Shown one piece after another: positions 1 to 52,507 of a stretch of 52,782 nucleotides of DNA. Below the pieces are notes generated by a model. It did no database searches, had not been told where the DNA came from, and saw nothing but the letters and a program-made list of their open reading frames with translations. The translations under genes were made by a program, and so were the position numbers. How positions within the stretch are numbered: the stretch's first letter is position 1; each line of letters opens with the position of its first letter. Source of the DNA: a virus; IMG/VR virus record IMGVR_UViG_3300017776_000018, positions 1 to 52,782 of that record; one strand, 5' to 3'.

Positions 1-169
1 AAAGCAAACCAATGGCTGCGTCTTGACAGAAGTTCTTTGCTTTCCCTTCATTTTCAGCGTATCTGGTGATCCACGAAGAAACGCTTTGTGGGTCATGTGC
101 CATACCAGTCAAAGCCAAGTTGTAAGAACGCAGGGTGTGAACGGCTTCAATCAAATTGGCTTCGCCCAT
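1..169 (-). CDS. Truncated minus-strand gene running off the left edge, unknown function
   Basis: An open frame on the minus strand starts at ATG 169-167 and stays open for 56 codons to the window edge, so the C-terminus is missing. Its start is preceded by a good Shine-Dalgarno-like GGTGGAGG a few bases upstream. The visible protein begins MGEANLIEAVHTLRSYNLAL and reads like a helical, soluble domain; I recognise no family. It is the only supported minus-strand gene and is divergent from the + strand cluster beginning at 249, so it probably belongs to the other transcription arm of the virus. The overlapping + strand open frame at 23-280 has poor composition and no ribosome-binding site, and I consider it spurious. 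Confidence 0.55.
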   Translation of the reverse strand, partial: MGEANLIEAVHTLRSYNLALTGMAHDPQSVSSWITRYAENEGKAKNFCQDAAIGLL

Positions 170-218
170 GCCTCCACCACAATTACCCTGCTATTTGGCT
201 TTGTTGATTGTGGGATAG

Positions 219-226
219 TTCATATA
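219..226 (+). promoter_or_regulatory. Candidate archaeal TATA box (TTCATATA) in the divergent intergenic region
   Basis: The 79-nt gap between the two divergent starts (169 on minus, 249 on plus) contains TTCATATA centred about 26.5 nt upstream of ATG 249, which is the archaeal TATA-to-start distance. Transcription from it would begin at or next to the start codon (leaderless). Read on the other strand it is TATATGAA, about 53 nt from the minus-strand ATG, and could also serve that gene with a short leader. The same octamer recurs at 22247-22254 ahead of the protease gene. Confidence 0.45.
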
Positions 227-248
227 CGTGGGAGACATGGGAGGGATA

Positions 249-395
249 ATGGGCAAGCACGTTTCAGTTGTTATGCGTGATGCCCTCTTTGAAAAAATGG
301 AGAATGAACGAGGGCGAGAGTCCAAATCATCCTTCATCAATCACGCCATTGCGTTTTATTTTCAAAACAAAGACAAGGTGAAGCATGATGAATAG
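249..395 (+). CDS. Ribbon-helix-helix (CopG/Arc-like) DNA-binding protein
   Basis: A 48-residue protein starting at ATG 249, with GGGAGGG immediately upstream. It follows the RHH pattern: an N-terminal strand (HVSVVMRDALFEKM), a first helix over ENERGRESK, then SSFINHAIAFYF as the second helix. RHH proteins dimerise through the strand and bind operator DNA. As the first gene of the + strand cluster, facing a divergent gene across a 79-nt gap, it is well placed to autoregulate or to switch between the two arms; that role is inference. Its end overlaps the next gene by 11 nt, indicating translational coupling. It is too short for default gene callers. Confidence 0.72.
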   Translation: MGKHVSVVMRDALFEKMENERGRESKSSFINHAIAFYFQNKDKVKHDE

Positions 396-834
396 ACCTG
401 AAGAAGAACAAAACCAGCAAGCGTTTTATCCTCCGCCATATATGGCTCAAGACACAAACCGAATTGACATTAACCTCATTGCTATGTTGCTATGGCAATC
501 ACTTTTGACGGGCATTTCAGTTGCCGTATCACACATGGGTTGGTATCTCCCTGATGCTGGACCAAGCGAAATGGGGCTTCAATACGGATTGATTACGTTT
601 GGTTTCCTTTGCACCGCTATGGTTCTGTTCCATGTTGGCGGTGTTCGAGACTCCCTCGCAATGCGAGCCGAGTTCACAAAGGAGAACCAAGTGGACAAGT
701 GGCATCGCCAACAACACAGGTTGCAGCAACGACGGGCGCAAAAGCAACAATACTGGCAAGGCAACGGCCAGAATCCCCAATATCCATCTCAGGGACAAAC
801 CTTTGGAGTCCCTAACAACAAAAAAGAAGAATGA
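385..834 (+). CDS. Two-pass membrane protein with a Gln-rich cytoplasmic tail
   Basis: A 149-residue protein preceded by AAGGTGAAG. The N-terminal 28 residues are polar and proline-containing. Two hydrophobic segments follow, at about residues 30-50 and 66-87, and then a long basic, glutamine-rich tail (about 95-149) that could form a coiled coil or stay disordered. There is no signal peptidase site. I recognise no family. It opens a run of membrane-related genes (385-3713) that includes a membrane-anchored GTPase, so it may be a subunit of a viral complex in the host membrane. A holin-like lysis role is an alternative, but the long tail and the location argue against it. Confidence 0.7.
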   Translation: MMNRPEEEQNQQAFYPPPYMAQDTNRIDINLIAMLLWQSLLTGISVAVSHMGWYLPDAGPSEMGLQYGLITFGFLCTAMVLFHVGGVRDSLAMRAEFTKENQVDKWHRQQHRLQQRRAQKQQYWQGNGQNPQYPSQGQTFGVPNNKKEE

Positions 835-848
835 TTTGAGGTATGTTC

Positions 849-1073
849 ATGTGGCCTTTCACGACGCAGCAGGAACGACAAACAGAAGCCATGTCAATGA
901 TATTGGCTGAAAACGCATACGAAAGAAAAATGGAAAGGGTCGCAGGATGGGTTCGAACATTTTTAGCATTGCTCGGTGGAATCGCATTGACTTTTGGAAT
1001 CCTATTTGGTTTGGAAATGCTGAACATTTCACCATCCGATGTTTGGAGTTGGATAAAAGGCATTTTCAACTGA
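849..1073 (+). CDS. Small single-pass membrane protein
   Basis: 74 residues. I chose ATG 849 over ATG 843 because GAGGT (838-842) abuts the upstream ATG but is correctly spaced (6 nt) from 849. An amphipathic, charged N-terminal helix (about 8-33) is followed by one hydrophobic segment (about 36-58) and a short tail with tryptophans. No family recognised. It sits 20 nt before the GTPase gene and is probably co-translated with it. It may help anchor or regulate the GTPase at the membrane (inference from position and topology only). Confidence 0.65.
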   Translation: MWPFTTQQERQTEAMSMILAENAYERKMERVAGWVRTFLALLGGIALTFGILFGLEMLNISPSDVWSWIKGIFN

Positions 1074-1092
1074 AAATCAATGGGGGGGCATA

Positions 1093-1827
1093 ATGGCTTC
1101 CGCTTTGGTTGCAGGACACATGTTGATGGCCTCCGCTTCCGCATTTTACGCACTTTACCGTATTTTGAGGCCATATCGGGTTGGGATTTACGGGCCATCA
1201 ATGGTCGGTAAAACAACACTTGACCAATACCTCACCGTTCCTGGCGATATTGACCCAATCCCACGTGAGATGAGGACGGCACATGCAAAAGCCGACACCG
1301 CCACAGGCTTTCGAAGTCCACGTGGAACACGAAAACAGGTTCGTATGGTCAAAGAAAAGAAGCCAATAAGAACCACCGATCTTGCTGGCGACCCTATGTT
1401 TCGCAACCTTTGGATTGAGGATATGTTCGGAAGAAATGTTGAATTGGTTATTTTTATGGTGGATCACCGAGCCATGATTTTCAAACAGTTTGCTATGGAT
1501 GCTTCCGCCAGTCTTTCGTATTTGGTGGACAACATGATAAAGAAAGACGTGTCAAAAAACATTTCACGCAAAGCAAAAAAGAACTCAAAGAACTACACGC
1601 CCAAGTTGTTTTGTTTGATGATAAACAAAATGGACTTGTGGTGGGATCCTCAAGCAGCAAGATTGTGGCAATTGGGGCTTCAAAAAGAGCATCCAATTGT
1701 TGCGCCGTTTCGAGACTCGTTGAAGCGATTGCGAAAGGCAGGTATTCGGGCTGAGGTCATGGCTATGTCCTCACAACACGGCATCAACGTTCAAAAGAAC
1801 TTAGTTGATTTATTGGATTCTTTGTGA
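1093..1827 (+). CDS. Membrane-anchored small GTPase (TRAFAC/Ras-Arf-like)
   Basis: 244 residues; the start at 1093 follows a G-rich run (1082-1088). The N-terminus is a hydrophobic helix (about 2-22), then a basic stop (RPYR), then a P-loop GTPase fold. G1/Walker A is GPSMVGKT (34-41), G3 is DLAG (96-99), G4 is NKMD (178-181), and a G5-like MSSQ lies near residue 225. A hydrophobic strand LVIFMVD follows G3, as in Ras-like folds. The NKxD motif predicts guanine specificity. The DLAG form of G3 lacks the Gln that Ras uses for hydrolysis, so intrinsic GTPase may be slow. Arf, SRP-receptor-beta and bacterial conflict-system GTPases are the nearest families by motif, and I cannot decide between them. 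A dedicated membrane GTPase is unusual in a tailed-virus structural arm. Confidence 0.78.
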   Translation: MASALVAGHMLMASASAFYALYRILRPYRVGIYGPSMVGKTTLDQYLTVPGDIDPIPREMRTAHAKADTATGFRSPRGTRKQVRMVKEKKPIRTTDLAGDPMFRNLWIEDMFGRNVELVIFMVDHRAMIFKQFAMDASASLSYLVDNMIKKDVSKNISRKAKKNSKNYTPKLFCLMINKMDLWWDPQAARLWQLGLQKEHPIVAPFRDSLKRLRKAGIRAEVMAMSSQHGINVQKNLVDLLDSL

Positions 1828-1864
1828 GAAAAGGCTTATGGGGGTGTGAGTTATGGGAGGGCTA

Positions 1865-2830
1865 ATGGCGTATAATCCGTTTGGAGGGTTTAACCCAATG
1901 AACATGCTCTATTCAAGAGGGGTCAAATTAAGTGGCCTTGATGATGAGCAATTGCGCCTCATGTCCACACAAACAGGAATCTCATACGAGTTGTTAAAAT
2001 CACAACAACGTGCTGAGATGGCAAGTGCTGGTTCAACTGGCGACATTGGCGAGGAACAATTGATTCCAACGGTGGAAATCCAACTCAAGTCCGACCCAAA
2101 GAACCCAAAGAAGGCACGTAAGAAAAACATCAAAATGCTTCGTAAGGCACTTCGGCCACCGAACTACAACTTGGGTCTTTTCAAGGTTTATCGCTACAAT
2201 GCAGCGCATGAATGCGCCTGTTGTGGCGTTGATATTCGCAGATTCCTTGAGGGCGACAACGCATACGCTCACATTGTTGATGAAAGAGTTGGACTTTCGC
2301 TGGCCGACATTTATTGGTTTGACGAGGACACAGGAAGTGCCAGAAAACCATTGGCTCGAACTCATGGAGATCACGGCGATGAAATGAACAGTTCACTTTG
2401 CCCTGCACACCTGCATATCTATCACACGCTCAAAACGTTGGTTCAAGAGCATGAGTTGGCTGAGGATGGTTTGCTTATGAAGCCTGTAAGCAAAGGAACC
2501 AAGTTCACCAAAATACCAGGAATGGGTGCGTTTAGAGGGACAAATGCAACAAAAAACCGAAGCACCCCCGAATCCTTGTTGAAATACGAGCAATTCTTTG
2601 CGATGATTCACAAAGACGCTCAACATTCCAAAGGTGTTCAACTGACACAACTTCCAAATCCAACAACAGGCATAGTGGACATTGTTCAAATTACGTTTGA
2701 CCTTCGAGCCTTACAATCGGAAACCGTTATGGCTCAAAGAAATACAATGGCAAACGGAGTTGCTATGCAAAACGCTATCAATGCACAAATGGTAGCACAG
2801 GCACAGGAAACAATTGCACAACAAAGGTGA
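1865..2830 (+). CDS. HNH-like zinc (treble-clef) protein with Met/Gln-rich tail
   Basis: 321 residues from ATG 1865, preferred over ATG 1853 because GGGAGG lies at 1855-1860. The middle part carries C117-x2-C120, H136 within AYAHIVD, N175, C179-x2-H182, a spacing that resembles the HNH endonuclease fold (CxxC, H, N, CxxH). The second HNH histidine is not evident, so it may be a degenerate or purely structural zinc finger. A lysine-rich stretch (82-96) precedes it. The C-terminus (about 285-321) is alanine/glutamine-rich helix. Phage HNH proteins usually sit beside terminase and assist packaging; here the neighbours are a GTPase and membrane proteins, so the role is open. Confidence 0.6.
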   Translation: MAYNPFGGFNPMNMLYSRGVKLSGLDDEQLRLMSTQTGISYELLKSQQRAEMASAGSTGDIGEEQLIPTVEIQLKSDPKNPKKARKKNIKMLRKALRPPNYNLGLFKVYRYNAAHECACCGVDIRRFLEGDNAYAHIVDERVGLSLADIYWFDEDTGSARKPLARTHGDHGDEMNSSLCPAHLHIYHTLKTLVQEHELAEDGLLMKPVSKGTKFTKIPGMGAFRGTNATKNRSTPESLLKYEQFFAMIHKDAQHSKGVQLTQLPNPTTGIVDIVQITFDLRALQSETVMAQRNTMANGVAMQNAINAQMVAQAQETIAQQR

Positions 2831-2835
2831 GACAC

Positions 2836-3471
2836 ATGGGATGGTTTAGCAGAAACGAAAATACGCAAGGAAGCACACAGTTTGGTTCTCCAACTGGAAT
2901 GGGAATGGGAATGGGAATGGGGATGGGTGCAGGTGCGGCTGGCATGGGAATGGACCCAACTATGATGATGATGCAACAGACTCAGAACCCCATGATGCAA
3001 CAAATGGCGAATGACCCCATCACCGCAACTGCACGTTTGCTTCAACTCAACGATCCTGTTGCACAATTTATCACAACGCAAAACATTGGTTTGCTTATGG
3101 ATTTGGTCGGTGAAGTGGTTCGATTGTCAATCAAAGAGTTCTTCACATCTGTTCAGTTCGTGCAAGACGGGGATAACATCGTTTTGAACACGGCAACTTT
3201 ACCTGCTGCAATCAACACATTATCGCCTGAGAACTTGGGCTTGACAATGACTCGCCTTCAATCATCAGCACAACAAACGCTCGCAATGAACGAACAGCAA
3301 CGACAAATGTTCCTCCAAGCCCATTCTATGGGAATGACAATGAATCCACAACAACAACCAGGGTTCTTCGGTAGTCTTATCGGAGGTATGCTTGGAAACC
3401 AAGTTCAGCAACAGGGTGGATTTGGTCAAACAGTCGCCAAGGGCGCAACAATGGGGGCTGCTGTATTATGA
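2836..3471 (+). CDS. Met/Gly/Gln-rich protein with central helical domain
   Basis: 211 residues from ATG 2836, chosen over GTG 2827 because AAAGGTGAG (2824-2832) is correctly placed for it. Residues about 20-60 contain a (GM)n repeat and runs of Met and Gln. A folded central region (about 60-150) includes a hydrophobic helix (IGLLMDLVGEVVRL) and a possible beta hairpin. The C-terminus is again Gly/Gln/Met-rich with a glycine-zipper-like GSLIGGMLG that could associate with membrane. The family is unknown. It ends in an ATGA overlap with a two-pass membrane protein, so the two are co-translated and probably act together. Confidence 0.6.
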   Translation: MGWFSRNENTQGSTQFGSPTGMGMGMGMGMGAGAAGMGMDPTMMMMQQTQNPMMQQMANDPITATARLLQLNDPVAQFITTQNIGLLMDLVGEVVRLSIKEFFTSVQFVQDGDNIVLNTATLPAAINTLSPENLGLTMTRLQSSAQQTLAMNEQQRQMFLQAHSMGMTMNPQQQPGFFGSLIGGMLGNQVQQQGGFGQTVAKGATMGAAVL

Positions 3472-3713
3472 ACAGAAAAGACGAATCACCAAATCAACCC
3501 AACATTTACCACACGACAGTTGAGTTTATGAGTCCCAACAAAATGTTGGTTGAAAGTGCAACGATGATTTACATTATCGCCTTCATGCTTGCTATGTTTG
3601 TTATGTTGGTTTGGCGAGGTTCGAGCCTCAGTTCAACTCAAGTCCTCATGGGCGCATTTGGCTTGCTTTTCACTTTCGCAATTGCAGTTCGGCAATTTGC
3701 TTCTTTTCGGTAG
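3468..3713 (+). CDS. Two-pass small membrane protein
   Basis: 81 residues, ATGA overlap with the preceding gene. A polar N-terminus of about 30 residues is followed by hydrophobic segments at about 32-49 and 58-76, joined by a short polar loop, and ends with RQFASFR. Size and topology would fit a holin or a membrane subunit of the upstream module. I see no endolysin next to it, so I lean to the latter. No family recognised. Confidence 0.6.
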   Translation: MNRKDESPNQPNIYHTTVEFMSPNKMLVESATMIYIIAFMLAMFVMLVWRGSSLSSTQVLMGAFGLLFTFAIAVRQFASFR

Positions 3714-3968: not shown

Positions 3969-4676
3969 ATGGCTGGTCGGCAGACTCGGAAGAATTGTCC
4001 GTTCTGTCAGCATCCAGAACGGGATTTAATCGAGAAAAAAATCCTTGAAGGCGCACTTGACGTTCAAGACTGTGATTTTGAGAATCAATGGCCTGAAGGA
4101 ACATCTCACCGCCACATGCGAAGGCATTCGGGAGAATACTATAACAATTCCAATTCGCATTGTCCTATTTGCACCGACCCAAACAGGGCAGATATAGAAG
4201 CAGCAATCCTTGAAGGACGTGCGGGTATTGACGACTTCGCAGTTGAGTTGGGGGTTGCCAGCAGCCTCGTTTCAACACACATGGAGAAGCACACAAAGCC
4301 AATCATTCAACAACACGTTCACATCGAGGCTTTGCCGAATGCCATGAAAACGGTGCATGAATCATTGGGTCGTGTTGAGAAAAACATGAACCGTTTGGAT
4401 CGGTTGTTGGGTCGGGTTCTTGACCATGTGGAGAATCAATTTGATGATGAAACCGAACCAATTGAAATGCGTGATGTTGAAACGGCATTGAAGGTTCATC
4501 GAGAAGTGCGTGATACGTTGGTTGAACTGGCAAAGTGGATGGAGAAGGCTGAAACCATTGAGGATAAGCAATCGGTGTCCATCATCAACGTTCTCCAACA
4601 ATTCTATTCCGAGAAGTCGCCCGAAGAATGGGTTGAACTCAAATCACGTTTGGTTGCGTCTGGGGTGATGAGTTGA
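3969..4676 (+). CDS. Tandem zinc/helix-turn-helix protein with coiled coil; candidate small terminase
   Basis: 235 residues from ATG 3969. Two tandem modules have identical spacing: C10-x2-C13-x35-H49-x3-H53 and C65-x2-C68-x35-H104-x3-H108. The second contains a clear helix-turn-helix (IDDFAVELGVASSLVSTH) between its Cys and His pairs. Such CxxC...R..I...G...A...GVS...H modules are DNA-binding. A long helical, coiled-coil-prone region (about 120-205) follows, then an acidic C-terminus. DNA-binding N-terminus plus oligomerising helices is the plan of small terminase subunits, and no other candidate precedes the large terminase (11762). The 7-kb separation leaves a transcription-factor role possible. 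Confidence 0.6.
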   Translation: MAGRQTRKNCPFCQHPERDLIEKKILEGALDVQDCDFENQWPEGTSHRHMRRHSGEYYNNSNSHCPICTDPNRADIEAAILEGRAGIDDFAVELGVASSLVSTHMEKHTKPIIQQHVHIEALPNAMKTVHESLGRVEKNMNRLDRLLGRVLDHVENQFDDETEPIEMRDVETALKVHREVRDTLVELAKWMEKAETIEDKQSVSIINVLQQFYSEKSPEEWVELKSRLVASGVMS

Positions 4677-5116
4677 AAATCACAGTTCGCCAATTGATGT
4701 GCAAGGATTCTCCTGAGCATGATGTGATTTTGAATAGCAAAATCCCAAAAGAGGATTGGTCTATTGAGGATTTGATGATGTTCACCAGTTCTGTTGATGT
4801 TGTGGTGCAACGGTGGGCAAATGCCGTTGGTGAACATATGGAATACCCAACTGAGATGATTGGTTCGATATTCGGCTCATTGATTACAACACGTATGCTT
4901 ATTGATGATTTGAAAGTCCTCAAACACAATCCACAGGCTGAGGTCATTTCACTTCTTGATGGAACGCAAATCATTACCGATTTAAAACAGAAAATGTTGC
5001 CCATGTCCAAATCCTATGCACGTGTTCCGTCGTTGGCCCAATGGTATATGGCTTTAGCAAATGAAATTGATTTGGCGTATCGTGTGATTCGAAGGGGGTT
5101 GAAGGATGGTCGTTAG
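4673..5116 (+). CDS. Helical protein of unknown function
   Basis: 147 residues starting at TTG 4673, which overlaps the previous stop (TTGA) and is preceded by GGGGTGATG. Predicted mostly alpha-helical with a conserved-looking acidic N-terminal half and a basic C-terminus (YRVIRRGLKDGR). No zinc or membrane motifs. Tight coupling on both sides (4-nt and 11-nt overlaps) suggests stoichiometric synthesis with the candidate small terminase and the next disordered protein. No family recognised. Confidence 0.6.
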   Translation: MKITVRQLMCKDSPEHDVILNSKIPKEDWSIEDLMMFTSSVDVVVQRWANAVGEHMEYPTEMIGSIFGSLITTRMLIDDLKVLKHNPQAEVISLLDGTQIITDLKQKMLPMSKSYARVPSLAQWYMALANEIDLAYRVIRRGLKDGR

Positions 5117-6611
5117 CAATCCACGTGAGCCTGTTCTTTGGACTCCAAGAACCCAAGAAATGATGGGAGGTTGGAATCCACGTGAGGTTCTTGACCACGA
5201 CATCAACCCAAATGAGGACGGCGACGGTTTATCTCATCATGGACGTGAAACCCAAGAGGACGCAAGAAGCCGTGATCAGCAAGACCCAAAAAAGCGAAGA
5301 GAACAGGCAATGCGAGAATTGGCGACTCCTATTCCTCATGTCAGCATTCGCCCTGAGAAAATAGACGATACGTTGGGAAGGTCGCCTCAATTTGAGCAAG
5401 AACAACGAATGCTTGAGGCTGGCGTTGGAATGGACTTGAACCGCAACGGCATTGGTTTGTCAAACGGTATGAATGCAGGTTCGGTGCGAAGTGAGGGTCC
5501 AAACATCAAATACGGGCAAAGCAATTCGGTTGTTCCAGCAATGCTTGGGAAGGCAATCAAGAATAATAAATGCAGCAAGTGTGGAAGGGCGGTGTTCATG
5601 GAGGACGACCCAAACAAGTTCTGCATGTTGTGTGAGGCGGGGGTTAAACAAAACAGAAGCCACCCCCCTGTTGAGTTTGACGAACAAATTGACCGACTTA
5701 AAAATAGCAACAATGTGAAAGTTCAGCAGAAAGATTTCAGCGAAGAATGGCAGAAAAAGAATGCCAGCGAGGACATTTTCGAGCAATCATGGGATAGCAT
5801 CAGCAAAGGCAAGCGACGATACAAAGGTCGCCACATGTATGATGATGAGGAATCCGATGAGGACGAGCGCAAGTCAAAGAAAAAGCGCAAGCGAAAGAAG
5901 AAGCGTGAGGGTAAGCGAAAGAAGGCAGCACGTGGAGGTCGCCAGCCCAAATCAATGACCACCAGACGAAAGGGCAATGTCGAAACCGATGTGGATCGTG
6001 GTTCACGTCGTCAAGCCTTCCACCCCAACCTTCATAGCGAGGCGATTAGGGGTGTCGGACGTTCTCGAACAGACCGAATCCCTCTCCGACTTCGTGATCC
6101 TATTGCATGGGAACGTAAGAAAGCAAACGAGCGATTGCGACGACAAGTGGGTTCACTACCAGCAGGTTTGACTCACCATGCTGATACAAGAGGCATGGGA
6201 ACAAAGCGTGGTGCAATTCAGGGCGGTTCTATTGGAAGCGGAACAAAAATGCCAACAGTTGCCCGTATGGGAACATCAACAAAGCGATTCTCAAGGGATG
6301 CCGTAGGCGACCCTCTCAGCACCCACGACCCATTGTTCAACAAATCGGATATTGAAAAATCAAAGTTGAGAATCACCCGTTCCGAACTCATGGCTATGAA
6401 ACGTAAGGTTGAGAAATTGATTCAACAACTCAACAAATTGACCAAGGCTACGCCAGAACTTGGCAACGAAGGCAAGGTTGGCGCACAGGCAAATAGCGAT
6501 ACGGCTTCATCCCCAACAGGCGCAACAAAATTGAATGAAGAGGAAGAACCGTATCGGGCTTTTGTTGATATGGCTTTGGCACAGGAGATGGGTCTTGTAG
6601 GCAAGAAGTGA
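5106..6611 (+). CDS. Long disordered protein with zinc ribbon and highly basic tract
   Basis: 501 residues. The N-terminal third is polar and disordered, and includes an acidic EDGDG stretch. A four-cysteine zinc ribbon follows (C156-x2-C159-x13-C173-x2-C176). An acidic segment (DDEESDEDE) then runs directly into a Lys/Arg-rich tract at about 256-280 containing KKKRKRKKKREGKRKK. A basic, Gly-rich region comes next, and finally a coiled coil (about 415-450). The basic tract strongly suggests nucleic-acid binding, for example genome condensation in the head or an RNA/DNA-binding morphogenesis factor. Unknown family. Confidence 0.6.
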   Translation: MVVSNPREPVLWTPRTQEMMGGWNPREVLDHDINPNEDGDGLSHHGRETQEDARSRDQQDPKKRREQAMRELATPIPHVSIRPEKIDDTLGRSPQFEQEQRMLEAGVGMDLNRNGIGLSNGMNAGSVRSEGPNIKYGQSNSVVPAMLGKAIKNNKCSKCGRAVFMEDDPNKFCMLCEAGVKQNRSHPPVEFDEQIDRLKNSNNVKVQQKDFSEEWQKKNASEDIFEQSWDSISKGKRRYKGRHMYDDEESDEDERKSKKKRKRKKKREGKRKKAARGGRQPKSMTTRRKGNVETDVDRGSRRQAFHPNLHSEAIRGVGRSRTDRIPLRLRDPIAWERKKANERLRRQVGSLPAGLTHHADTRGMGTKRGAIQGGSIGSGTKMPTVARMGTSTKRFSRDAVGDPLSTHDPLFNKSDIEKSKLRITRSELMAMKRKVEKLIQQLNKLTKATPELGNEGKVGAQANSDTASSPTGATKLNEEEEPYRAFVDMALAQEMGLVGKK

Positions 6612-11761: not shown

Positions 11762-13198
11762 ATGTCCGAAGCCATGAATCAACTTGCAGCACAGGTTGAT
11801 TTTGAAATGGGGCGGAAGGACTTCAAATACTTCTTCGAAGAGATTTGTGGAAAGTTTGATGAGAAGTTCCCTTGGATTCTCACCAAGTTTCATCAAGAAT
11901 GGTTTGATATGTCCGAAAACAACAGCAAAACCTGTATCATTGCCAGCCGTGATCATGGCAAGTCCGTGTTTTACCGTGTTTATCTCCTATGGAAAATGGC
12001 TTACAATCCAGGCACAGAAGTTCTGTTTTTCTCACACAGTCAGCACCAGTCCATTGAACACATGGGCAAAATGAATGAACTCATCGAAGCCATTCCTGCA
12101 CTACAACATCTCAAACCAAAGCGAGGATGGGCGAAGCAGAAGTTCAAGTTCACCAACAAATCATCCATCTCGGCTATGTCCGTCGGCAAAGCAGTTCGTG
12201 GGGCGCACCCTCAAATCGTAGTGCTTGACGATATTTTGTCAAGTGAAGCCCAAACGCAACTCAAGCACATATCATCATGGTTTTACACGGCACTTCTTCC
12301 TGTTCTCCACCACACCGCCCAACTGTGCATTGTTGGAACTCCGTTTTCCTACACCGATCTTTACGCTGAACTCAAGAAGTTGAAGTCCTATGCGGTTCGT
12401 GAATATCCCGCCATCAATGAACAAACAGGCGAACCATTGTTCCCTGAACGCTGGTCGTTGGAAGCATTGAACAACCGTCGAAACGACATGACCTCAATTG
12501 CATTCACACGTGAATACCTGTGCAAACCGATTGCCAGCGAAGCGAGTCTGTTCCCTGAAGAGGTGTTGAATAAAGTCAAGGATGAGGAATTAGCATTGTC
12601 CTATTATCCACATGATGGTGAATCCTACAACTATTACATCGGTTGGGATCCTGCAATCTCAGCAGATAGGAGAGCCGACTACACGTGCATGATGGTTGTT
12701 GCCGTTGATGAAAACAAAAACAAACACATTATCCACACACACCATGAGAAGGGGATGGACTTCTCATCTCAAATTGACAAAATCATTGAACTTAACGCCA
12801 GATTCAATCCAGTTATCATTGAACTTGAGACAAACAACTTCGCATTGGCGTTTAATCAAGTGCTAAACGAAATCAGCGATTTGCCGATAAAACCCTTCAA
12901 TATGAGCCGAATGAAGAAAGAGGCTTTAATTCATACCCTCCAACTGCAATTTGAACAGGGCAAGTTGTCAATACCCTACAAAGACGAAGGAGGGACACGG
13001 AGATTGATGAACACTTTATTGACTGAACTCTCCACGTTCACCATGTTGGACAACGGACGCATGGAAAGTTTAGGGGGCCACGACGACATGGTTATGGCAC
13101 TTGCATTGAGCGTTCAAGCAACCAAGGAATATCGAGATAGTATCGTGATTTTAGATGCTGATGTTTGGCAAAACAGGTTAGGGTGGGCAAATGTTTGA
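11762..13198 (+). CDS. terL: Terminase large subunit (packaging ATPase and nuclease)
   Basis: 478 residues; GAGGTGAT precedes ATG 11762. N-terminal ATPase: Walker A ASRDHGKS (61-68, the deviant R-x-x-GKS form common in terminases), Walker B VVLDD (153-157), coupling motif GTPF (192-195). C-terminal RNase-H-like nuclease: D296 in GWDPAIS, E354/E356 in IELETN, D441/D442 in GGHDDM. All catalytic acids are present and the length is normal, so it should be active. It drives genome entry through the portal (14422) and cuts concatemers. It overlaps the next gene by 8 nt. Confidence 0.96.
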   Translation: MSEAMNQLAAQVDFEMGRKDFKYFFEEICGKFDEKFPWILTKFHQEWFDMSENNSKTCIIASRDHGKSVFYRVYLLWKMAYNPGTEVLFFSHSQHQSIEHMGKMNELIEAIPALQHLKPKRGWAKQKFKFTNKSSISAMSVGKAVRGAHPQIVVLDDILSSEAQTQLKHISSWFYTALLPVLHHTAQLCIVGTPFSYTDLYAELKKLKSYAVREYPAINEQTGEPLFPERWSLEALNNRRNDMTSIAFTREYLCKPIASEASLFPEEVLNKVKDEELALSYYPHDGESYNYYIGWDPAISADRRADYTCMMVVAVDENKNKHIIHTHHEKGMDFSSQIDKIIELNARFNPVIIELETNNFALAFNQVLNEISDLPIKPFNMSRMKKEALIHTLQLQFEQGKLSIPYKDEGGTRRLMNTLLTELSTFTMLDNGRMESLGGHDDMVMALALSVQATKEYRDSIVILDADVWQNRLGWANV

Positions 13199-51357: not shown

Positions 51358-51791
51358 TGTCCGACTTGAAAAAGAAAAAATGTTGCTGCGGTGCAACTGA
51401 AAAGAATCCCTGCGCTTGTATGAAAAAGGGAATTATGAAATGTTCAGCAAAAGAGCCTATGTGCCAATGCTACAAGGACTTGAAGAAACAGGGCAAGCAC
51501 CCTGCTGATTTGAAGAAATCATTCAATGGTGCATGGTTGATTATGAAGGCTGATGAGGCCGACGTTGGCATTTGCGATGGTTGCATGGAAACCGCCTTAA
51601 TTGGTCGTCTTTCAACGGGTCAAGGCAATGCTTTGCTTTGCTACGATTGCTGGCGAAAGGAGATGCAATGGCGGCATTTAAGAAATGTGGACCTGGAAGA
51701 ATCAGGAGGCTACGTCCACCCCAACGATTATTTCGAAATTGAAACATGGCCGCATAGCGACATGGAACCTGGAATGGAGGGCTACCAATGA
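51357..51791 (+). CDS. Cys-rich zinc protein with FxxAWxxMKxDE motif
   Basis: 144 residues. The N-terminal 40 residues hold eight cysteines (CCCG, CAC, C, CQC), then FNGAWLIMKADE (56-67), then a zinc ribbon CDGC...CYDC (first pair near residue 73, second about 25 residues on). C-terminus aromatic and acidic. At least two zinc sites are likely. The next gene has the same F-x-x-A-W-x-[LI]-M-K-x-D-E core. Function unknown. Confidence 0.62.
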   Translation: MSDLKKKKCCCGATEKNPCACMKKGIMKCSAKEPMCQCYKDLKKQGKHPADLKKSFNGAWLIMKADEADVGICDGCMETALIGRLSTGQGNALLCYDCWRKEMQWRHLRNVDLEESGGYVHPNDYFEIETWPHSDMEPGMEGYQ

Positions 51792-52507
51792 GCGATTATG
51801 ACCCCTATGCGCCAAGACCACTTTCAGGATTGGCAAGAGGGCAACATGATTCATACGCTCCAACTTGGATGAACAAGGTGATTGAACCCGCAGAATACAC
51901 CGAGGACGGTCGAAGAATACGAATGAAAGGGCTTACTGAGGATGAAGCCAACATGGTGCGAGATGAATTGAAACATGGAAATGAGGTGAGGACGGCTCCC
52001 GATGGGACATTCATGCTGCTTCACGCTGATCATCCTCGATATAATGAAGGAACAGATTACTCACAGGGTTCGCCTAAACGCATTGCCATGATGGAAGCAT
52101 ACCAAAAAAGGAATGAAGAATACCGAAAAAAACACGGGTTGAAAAAAATGAACGATGAAACATTTGAGATTGCATGGGAACTGATGAAAAGCGACGAGAA
52201 GGGCGACAACGCCCCAACCAATCCTGGTCTTTGGGCGCAAGCCAAATCAAAGGCACGTTCTAAGTTCAAGGTTTATCCGTCTGCCTACGCCAACGGTTGG
52301 GCTGCTAAATGGTATAAATCCAAAGGTGGCGGCTGGAAGAAGAAAGGCAAGAGCAACAAGAAAGTGAAGAAATCCGACGATGAAGGATGGACTGATAACG
52401 ACCTTCAATGCCGAATGTGCAAATACGTTCAAACCCCTGAAGAATGGGAAGCAAAGAACTGTAAAAAGTGTGGGACAAGGAATATGCTTCATCCGTTTTG
52501 GCGTTGA
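51788..52507 (+). CDS. Modular accessory protein: FxxAWxxMKxDE, YPSAYAN-type domain and zinc ribbon
   Basis: 239 residues. Residues 126-137 are FEIAWELMKSDE. Residues 146-184 (LWAQAKSKARSKFKVYPSAY, then a WAAKWYKSKGGG end) match a short domain I know from marine viral proteins, of unknown function. A Lys-rich linker (184-196) precedes a C-terminal ribbon, C208-x2-C211-x13-C225-x2-C228. ATGA overlap with the previous gene. Role unknown; the basic linker would permit DNA or RNA binding. Confidence 0.62.
   Translation: MSDYDPYAPRPLSGLARGQHDSYAPTWMNKVIEPAEYTEDGRRIRMKGLTEDEANMVRDELKHGNEVRTAPDGTFMLLHADHPRYNEGTDYSQGSPKRIAMMEAYQKRNEEYRKKHGLKKMNDETFEIAWELMKSDEKGDNAPTNPGLWAQAKSKARSKFKVYPSAYANGWAAKWYKSKGGGWKKKGKSNKKVKKSDDEGWTDNDLQCRMCKYVQTPEEWEAKNCKKCGTRNMLHPFWR

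Follow-up and report, generated by a model that had tools for sequence, protein, structure and literature searches.

At the left end of a viral DNA fragment, the gene for a small GTPase lies among genes for small membrane proteins, on the same strand as the packaging and capsid genes of a tailed virus and upstream of them. What do these genes encode together, to which viruses do they belong, and how might a tailed virus use them? The window, by which we mean the whole stretch of 52,782 bases analysed, covers positions 1-52,782 of the IMG/VR record IMGVR_UViG_3300017776_000018, known here as a fragment. Profile matches identify genes for large terminase, portal, prohead protease, HK97-type capsid and tape-measure proteins in it.

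The gene block and its flanks

Six closely spaced open reading frames, all on the plus strand, occupy positions 385-3713. The initial annotation had described six adjacent genes with two-pass, one-pass, GTPase and two-pass products among them, and the coordinates, reading frames, hydrophobic segments and orthologous starts bear this out. A hydrophobic segment is defined here as a KD19 of at least 1.5, and distinct orthologues were counted. The first gene (385..834, +) encodes TM2a, which has two hydrophobic segments followed by a charged Gln/Arg-rich C-terminal tail. Its identity among the relatives of the window virus (clade 1) is 58-71%, and two segments are present in 47 of 50 orthologues. 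In a further group of viruses, clade 2, the tail is long and coiled-coil-like. The second gene (849..1073, +) encodes TM1, a protein of 74 aa that has a single pass and, at its N-terminus, a charged helix; its start, MWPF, is backed by orthologues, and a single segment is seen in all 45 of those counted. The GTPase gene follows at 1093..1827 (+). Its product of 244 residues carries a hydrophobic helix immediately before the G domain and is assigned to the Arf/Rag type by its G1, G3 and G4 motifs, profile matches and an AF2 model.

A Cys/His protein of ~320 aa, putatively of zinc type, is encoded at 1865..2830 (+), with the start MAYN backed by an orthologue alignment. The next gene (2836..3471, +; start MGWF backed by orthologues) encodes a Met/Gln/Gly-rich protein with a low-complexity, disordered-looking N-terminus, a conserved core and a Gly-zipper-like C-terminus (PGFFGSLIGGMLG). 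Its end overlaps the start of the last gene (3468..3713, +) by ATGA, as had been pointed out before. This gene encodes TM2b, a two-pass protein of 81 aa whose two hydrophobic segments are found in 49/49 orthologues. The membrane is thus the theme of the block, with three integral membrane proteins and a hydrophobic GTPase N-terminus. Where synonymous change was unsaturated, dN/dS is ~0.05-0.14 for most block genes and 0.16-0.27 for TM2b. Such values reflect purifying selection, and the reading frames are therefore genes.

Upstream of the block lies g55 (249..395, +), encoding 48 aa that may form a ribbon-helix-helix-type regulator, a fold recognized by eye. Its ATG at 249 is preceded by GGGAGGG, and its end shares 11 bases with the start of TM2a. 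Profile matches of g55 are weak (PHROG_18533, 1e-4; DUF6290, 0.014). In nearly every clade-1 locus, an orthologue of 44-60 aa precedes TM2a; none was detected in the 80 clade-2 loci, and the gene is kept in clade 1 only. Downstream, g235 (3969..4676, +) is conserved in relatives and encodes Cys pairs and an HTH-like stretch. Its Pfam matches are weak only, and a small terminase subunit is a guess. In the loci of relatives, the median spacing inside the block is ~9-41 bp, and a median gap of 261 bp follows TM2b before g235. This gene is the boundary of the module and lies outside it. The large terminase gene is found at 11762..13198 (+; PHROG_38, 4e-75).

The GTPase and the Cys/His protein

In the window GTPase, the motifs G1 (GPSMVGKTT), G3 (DLAGD) and G4 (NKMD) are intact, and a G5-like SSQ is also there. 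The integrity of G1, G3 and G4 had been claimed for this one protein and extends well beyond it, since G1, the Asp and Gly of G3, and the N, K and D of G4 are invariant in 121 distinct sequences (51 from clade 1 and 70 from clade 2). The position of the catalytic Gln in G3 is variable. It is Asp in the window virus; in clade 1, Gln occurs in 34/51 and Asp in 11/51, and in clade 2, Gln occurs in 40/70. By inference from sequence, the Asp of the window virus could slow hydrolysis or make it dependent on a partner.

Whether the P-loop serves guanine or adenine nucleotides had been left as a point on which the module idea could fail. NKxD is invariant, the NCBIfam small_GTP model matches 20 of 40 members, and the structural matches are all GTPases. 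Motifs and modelled fold place the P-loop protein among the small GTPases of guanine type, and GTP binding and hydrolysis are predicted on the same grounds. An ATPase reading was rejected on the NKxD motif and the fold. The Arf profile is matched by 15/40 members at E<=0.01, and weak profile matches to Roc, EF-Tu, Ras and Rag also occur among the 40, Rag (PF04670) in 4/40. The Arf profile (PF00025) is absent from the matches of the window protein itself at E<=1. A divergent copy in the Poseidoniales genome G346 scores above Pfam's Arf cut-off (24.9 vs 22.3 bits). The nearest PDB entry by sequence is 8oun (3.4e-6). The AF2 model has a pLDDT of 66 and is weak around residues 35-99. Foldseek returned nothing at E<=0.001 with this model, although its leading entries were GTPases, and VIA-align was therefore used. 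Its best 50 matches are all GTPases of the Arf/Arl/Rag/G-alpha/SR-beta types, including LokiRagO, Arl6 and Gtr1, with Z 10.4-12.0 and rmsd 2.6-3.4 over 133-152 residues.

The description of this GTPase as TM-anchored holds in part. A hydrophobic N-terminal helix does stand directly before the G domain, but a firm anchor does not follow from it, as the peak KD is 0.9-1.3 in relatives and 50/51 lack any segment >1.5. The helix, conserved and hydrophobic, has a low moment and is not clearly amphipathic. Its sequence is borderline for a spanning segment, and the helix may be peripheral rather than spanning.

A similar adjustment applies to the label "HNH-like zinc protein". The Cys/His positions are real: C117, C179, H182, H184 and H187 are invariant in 124 sequences from clades 1 and 2. 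Conservation does not extend to the catalytic residues of the HNH motif: position 136, that of the His, is H or Q in clade 1 but K or R in clade 2, and position 175, that of the Asn, is mostly N in clade 1 but R or K in clade 2. With no Pfam HNH match either, identity as an HNH nuclease was rejected. We infer from these residues that the protein probably binds zinc. Its AF2 model (pLDDT 49) was left out of the fold search. The G346 homologue is without part of the Cys/His site.

Conservation, virus group and hosts

The order of the block is kept in ~56 relatives of the window virus in clade 1 and in 80 members of clade 2. Searches with the GTPase and the Cys/His protein gave 56 loci each, nearly all from clade 1, and clade-1 loci that extend far enough show the entire gene series in order. 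A search with the divergent copy L147 matched 141 loci, 80 of which were examined. In the 80 clade-2 loci fetched through the GTPase, the genes for the GTPase, the Cys/His protein, the Met/Gly-rich protein and TM2b are present in 80/80, TM2a in 78/80 and, by profile, an equivalent of TM1 in 79/80. Since these clade-2 loci had been found via the GTPase, an independent test was made through the terminase. Among terminase-fetched loci with 10 kb upstream, the block is present in 26/26 of clade 1; module genes fall within the 10-kb flank in 24 of them, and in L068 and L073 the block lies further upstream. With at least 9 kb upstream, it is present in 48/48 of clade 2, including the Met/Gly-rich gene. 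Synteny, singled out by the initial annotation as decisive for its module, is thus conserved in essentially every relative with a long enough contig. Distances of the module genes track those of the terminase (r 0.70-0.86; 70 clade-2 loci). Gene order persists while GTPase identity falls to 31%, and related viruses are non-independent events in this count. On sequence grounds, the six-gene block looks like a core, essential-like module of the virus group.

One locus differs in setting. On a 128-kb contig of a Poseidoniales genome (G346:C65), a few kb separate the block from a gene resembling a recombinase; the block has one inserted acidic gene and no recognizable terminase cluster beside it. 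The block can therefore travel as a unit. No closer relatives of the G346 GTPase were found in the viral contigs scanned.

The nearest relatives of the window capsid protein are in the haloarchaeal Druskaviridae (32% identity). In the Poseidoniales single-cell genome AG-422-I20, a contig of 106 kb carries a relative of the module in the same gene order; its GTPase is 54% identical. DNA polymerase B (PolB) is found in 8/8 large clade-2 records and 2/7 clade-1 records. A chaperonin gene of the TCP-1/cpn60 family is present in a related record of 108 kb, and a chaperonin has been reported as a trait of Marine Group II viruses (PMC5332604). Because of the Druskaviridae-like capsid, the AG-422-I20 contig, the chaperonin and the PolB of clade 2, both clades are read, from sequence, as magrovirus-type tailed viruses of Poseidoniales (Marine Group II archaea). 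For the window virus itself any family placement is provisional, since PolB is undetected in several clade-1 records. No TFIIB was found in ten virus records. As a side observation, the relative G001 carries chaperonin and ERCC4-like genes, fitting an archaeal virus.

Host genomes were searched for comparable proteins. OapB was found in 0/97 Poseidoniales genomes and an Arf-type GTPase in 0/60; these genomes are partly incomplete, and the control genomes worked in both searches. ArvA was found in 0/60, again partly incomplete, in a search without a positive control. The sampled hosts are thus without detectable OapB, ArvA or Arf-type GTPase, and the virus therefore seems to supply its own GTPase switch to hosts in which none was detected.

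Known systems and possible roles

The closest cellular counterpart is the ArvA/ArvB/ArvC (OapA/OapB/OapC) system of Haloferax volcanii, in which knockout of the GTPase lowers vesicle output ~3-fold, and whose operon includes a Zn-ribbon protein, ArvC, acting negatively (PMC10927574). ArvA is the sole non-viral match of the viral GTPase profile in 390 Thermoplasmatota genomes (3.3e-6). Like the viral protein, it is a small archaeal GTPase with an N-terminal membrane-active helix, encoded in an operon with a zinc protein. The P-loop and an IPxExR stretch are alike, with an hhalign probability of 95% over 41 columns. However, the likeness is limited to the first ~70 residues, ~45-55 of them aligned, from the N-terminal helix and P-loop to switch I, and G3 is DTPG in ArvA but DxGG[QED] in the viral GTPase. 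With full-length likeness absent and G3 different, membership in ArvA was rejected. The Cys/His and Met/Gly proteins have no Pfam match to OapB (DUF2073) or OapC (DUF2072), and their identity with these partners was likewise rejected. The viral block also differs from ArvABC in having three additional membrane proteins and in being virus-encoded.

Arf/Arl proteins (PF00025; Asgard ArfR, PDB 8oum) share the DxGGQ-type G3 of most members, NKxD and the fold (Z 10.6-12). The viral GTPase differs from them in a longer G1-G3 stretch and, in the window virus, in the Asp at the catalytic Gln and in a score below Pfam's Arf cut-off. LokiRagO (8yl2), of the Rag/Gtr type, scores highest in the structural comparison (Z 12.0 over 152 residues), but the sequence match to Rag/Gtr is weak, and a protein of 244 residues is too short to include a C-terminal roadblock domain. 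Among viruses, likeness to Magrovirales and Druskaviridae lies in the Poseidoniales host link (L038), the PolB of clade 2 and the Druskavirus-like capsid. The complete genome of the Druskavirus HVTV-1 encodes homologues of the capsid, portal and protease proteins of the window virus group, but lacks all six block genes. GTPase and Cys/His protein have zero matches in 50,697 phage records. Both results agree with the view of the initial annotation that the block is not part of standard tailed-virus morphogenesis. The magrovirus literature covered does not mention a GTPase; an earlier annotation of it is possible. For literature joining Poseidoniales, virus and GTPase, only an Asgard-archaea review was found.

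Our leading interpretation, which we hold tentatively and at somewhat less than an even chance, is that magrovirus-type Poseidoniales viruses carry the six genes as a core module, and that these encode a membrane-associated G-protein switch for late remodelling in assembly or exit. How the switch docks on the membrane, what its partners do, when it acts and its use in assembly or exit are proposals, and the steps would be as follows. The Arf/Rag-like GTPase would dock on the cytoplasmic membrane via its N-terminal helix, and the small integral membrane proteins TM2a, TM1 and TM2b would give it its site. As regulator or effector of the GTPase, the strongest candidate is the Cys/His protein, which is encoded beside it. 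The Met/Gly-rich protein may self-associate in a coat- or scaffold-like manner. Once loaded with GTP, at a late stage of infection, the GTPase would bring the scaffold to a membrane patch, and this patch would be reshaped or marked, leading to virion assembly at the membrane or to release. Assembly siting and egress had both been put forward as possible roles by the initial annotation.

Several other roles have to be weighed against this switch. The block could be a lysis cassette: its small two-pass proteins would act like holins, and the GTPase would set the time or the place at which the envelope is finally disrupted. Three small integral membrane proteins, one of them an 81-residue two-pass protein, would suit this role, and lysis genes are otherwise unrecognized in profile scans of these genomes. 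The location fits too, as the block precedes the packaging genes and shares their strand; the lysis genes of lambda likewise sit immediately upstream of terminase genes. However, the block is without an envelope-degrading enzyme, which argues against a classical lysis cassette. Moreover, the Met/Gly-rich and Cys/His proteins are retained as strictly as the membrane proteins, and we know of no holin cassette that resembles a G-protein with two conserved soluble partners. We consider lysis an unlikely role. We regard it as quite unlikely that some block proteins are packaged in the virion and act on the membrane at DNA entry. The block does neighbour packaging and capsid genes, and upstream genes of relatives share an N-terminal tag resembling a sorting signal, but the tag is borne by 0/6 block proteins, and no GTPase switch in tailed-virus entry is known to us.

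Two further readings seem very improbable to us. The GTPase could act like the SRP-receptor beta subunit and help to insert viral membrane proteins. The SR-beta fold is among the structural matches (Z 10.5), one member has a weak SRPRB profile match, and a helix directly before an Arf-like G domain recalls the anchor of that subunit. Nevertheless, the SRPRB profile is matched much less often than the Arf profile, nothing resembling an SR-alpha partner is seen, and the helix of the viral GTPase is borderline. The other reading is superinfection exclusion or anti-defence at the membrane, the former already suggested by the initial annotation. Such systems commonly combine membrane proteins with an NTPase. 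PADLOC models, however, gave no match for eight proteins at E<=0.1, and genes of this kind are usually variable, whereas the order of the block is fixed in both clades and it diverges with the terminase. Superinfection exclusion is unlikely because the block is strictly conserved and core.

If the G-protein switch is the right reading, the block would be a new viral machine. A tailed-virus core module with an Arf/Rag-like GTPase would run a switchable membrane complex in hosts without such a GTPase, and the complex would serve remodelling that resembles budding, assembly sited at the membrane or a controlled exit; we give this proposal a little less than the weight of the leading interpretation. 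How archaeal tailed viruses exit or reshape the envelope is largely obscure, and the block offers a concrete gene set. GTPase-driven membrane work was thought to be eukaryotic and has recently been recognized in archaeal cells; a viral small-GTPase module would be its virus-borne counterpart. The hosts are among the most abundant marine archaea, and the block is a marker for their virus group. It may also give insight into the spread of Arf-like switches.

Sequences flanking the module

The gene that follows the six-gene GTPase and membrane-protein module in nearly all loci is g235, located at 3969-4676 of the window. Its product is conserved, contains Cys pairs and a stretch resembling an HTH, has no database match, and is a candidate for the small terminase subunit. 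On the other side, just upstream of the first small gene of the module (g55, 249-395), the closest relatives have in common a TTCATATAC/CTCATATAG block within window positions 1-250. This block precedes a GGGAGG-type ribosome site by about 20 bases and could be either a promoter or the last part of a gene lying upstream.

A divergent module copy and DNA polymerase B

A divergent copy of the module is present on a 128-kb contig of a Poseidoniales genome, G346:C65 (loci L247-L254). On the contig there are also genes resembling those for a chaperonin, for baseplate/tape-measure proteins, and for a recombinase, along with one for what may be a packaging ATPase (phrog_2666 match at 8e-8). The contig may represent a large virus of an unusual kind or an integrated element.

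When the large records of clade 1, the relatives of the window virus, were set against each other (G001, G004, G404, G405, and G406 versus G002 and G407), DNA polymerase B was present in some, whereas no copy was detectable in others. Since it was detected only in some of these records, replication-gene swapping or fragmentary records are suggested.

An N-terminal tag in many ORFs

Many ORFs that are otherwise unrelated have in common, at the N-terminus, a tag like M-x-A-F-D-x-A-W-x-[VIL]-[VIL]-K. In G001, it lies within the first 35 residues of 16 of the 120 ORFs (shuffled expectation, 0.02), with tag-bearing ORFs at 36.3-45.2, 21-24, and 76-78 kb of the record (L024-L026). There are 12 such ORFs in G002 and six in G004. 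Internal copies occur at 5106-6611 and 51788-52507 of the window, and ORF starts similar to the tag are found in L259 and L304, two loci of the second, DNA-polymerase-B-bearing clade. The tag looks like a common signal for sorting or capsid targeting, and it may mark virion-packaged proteins.
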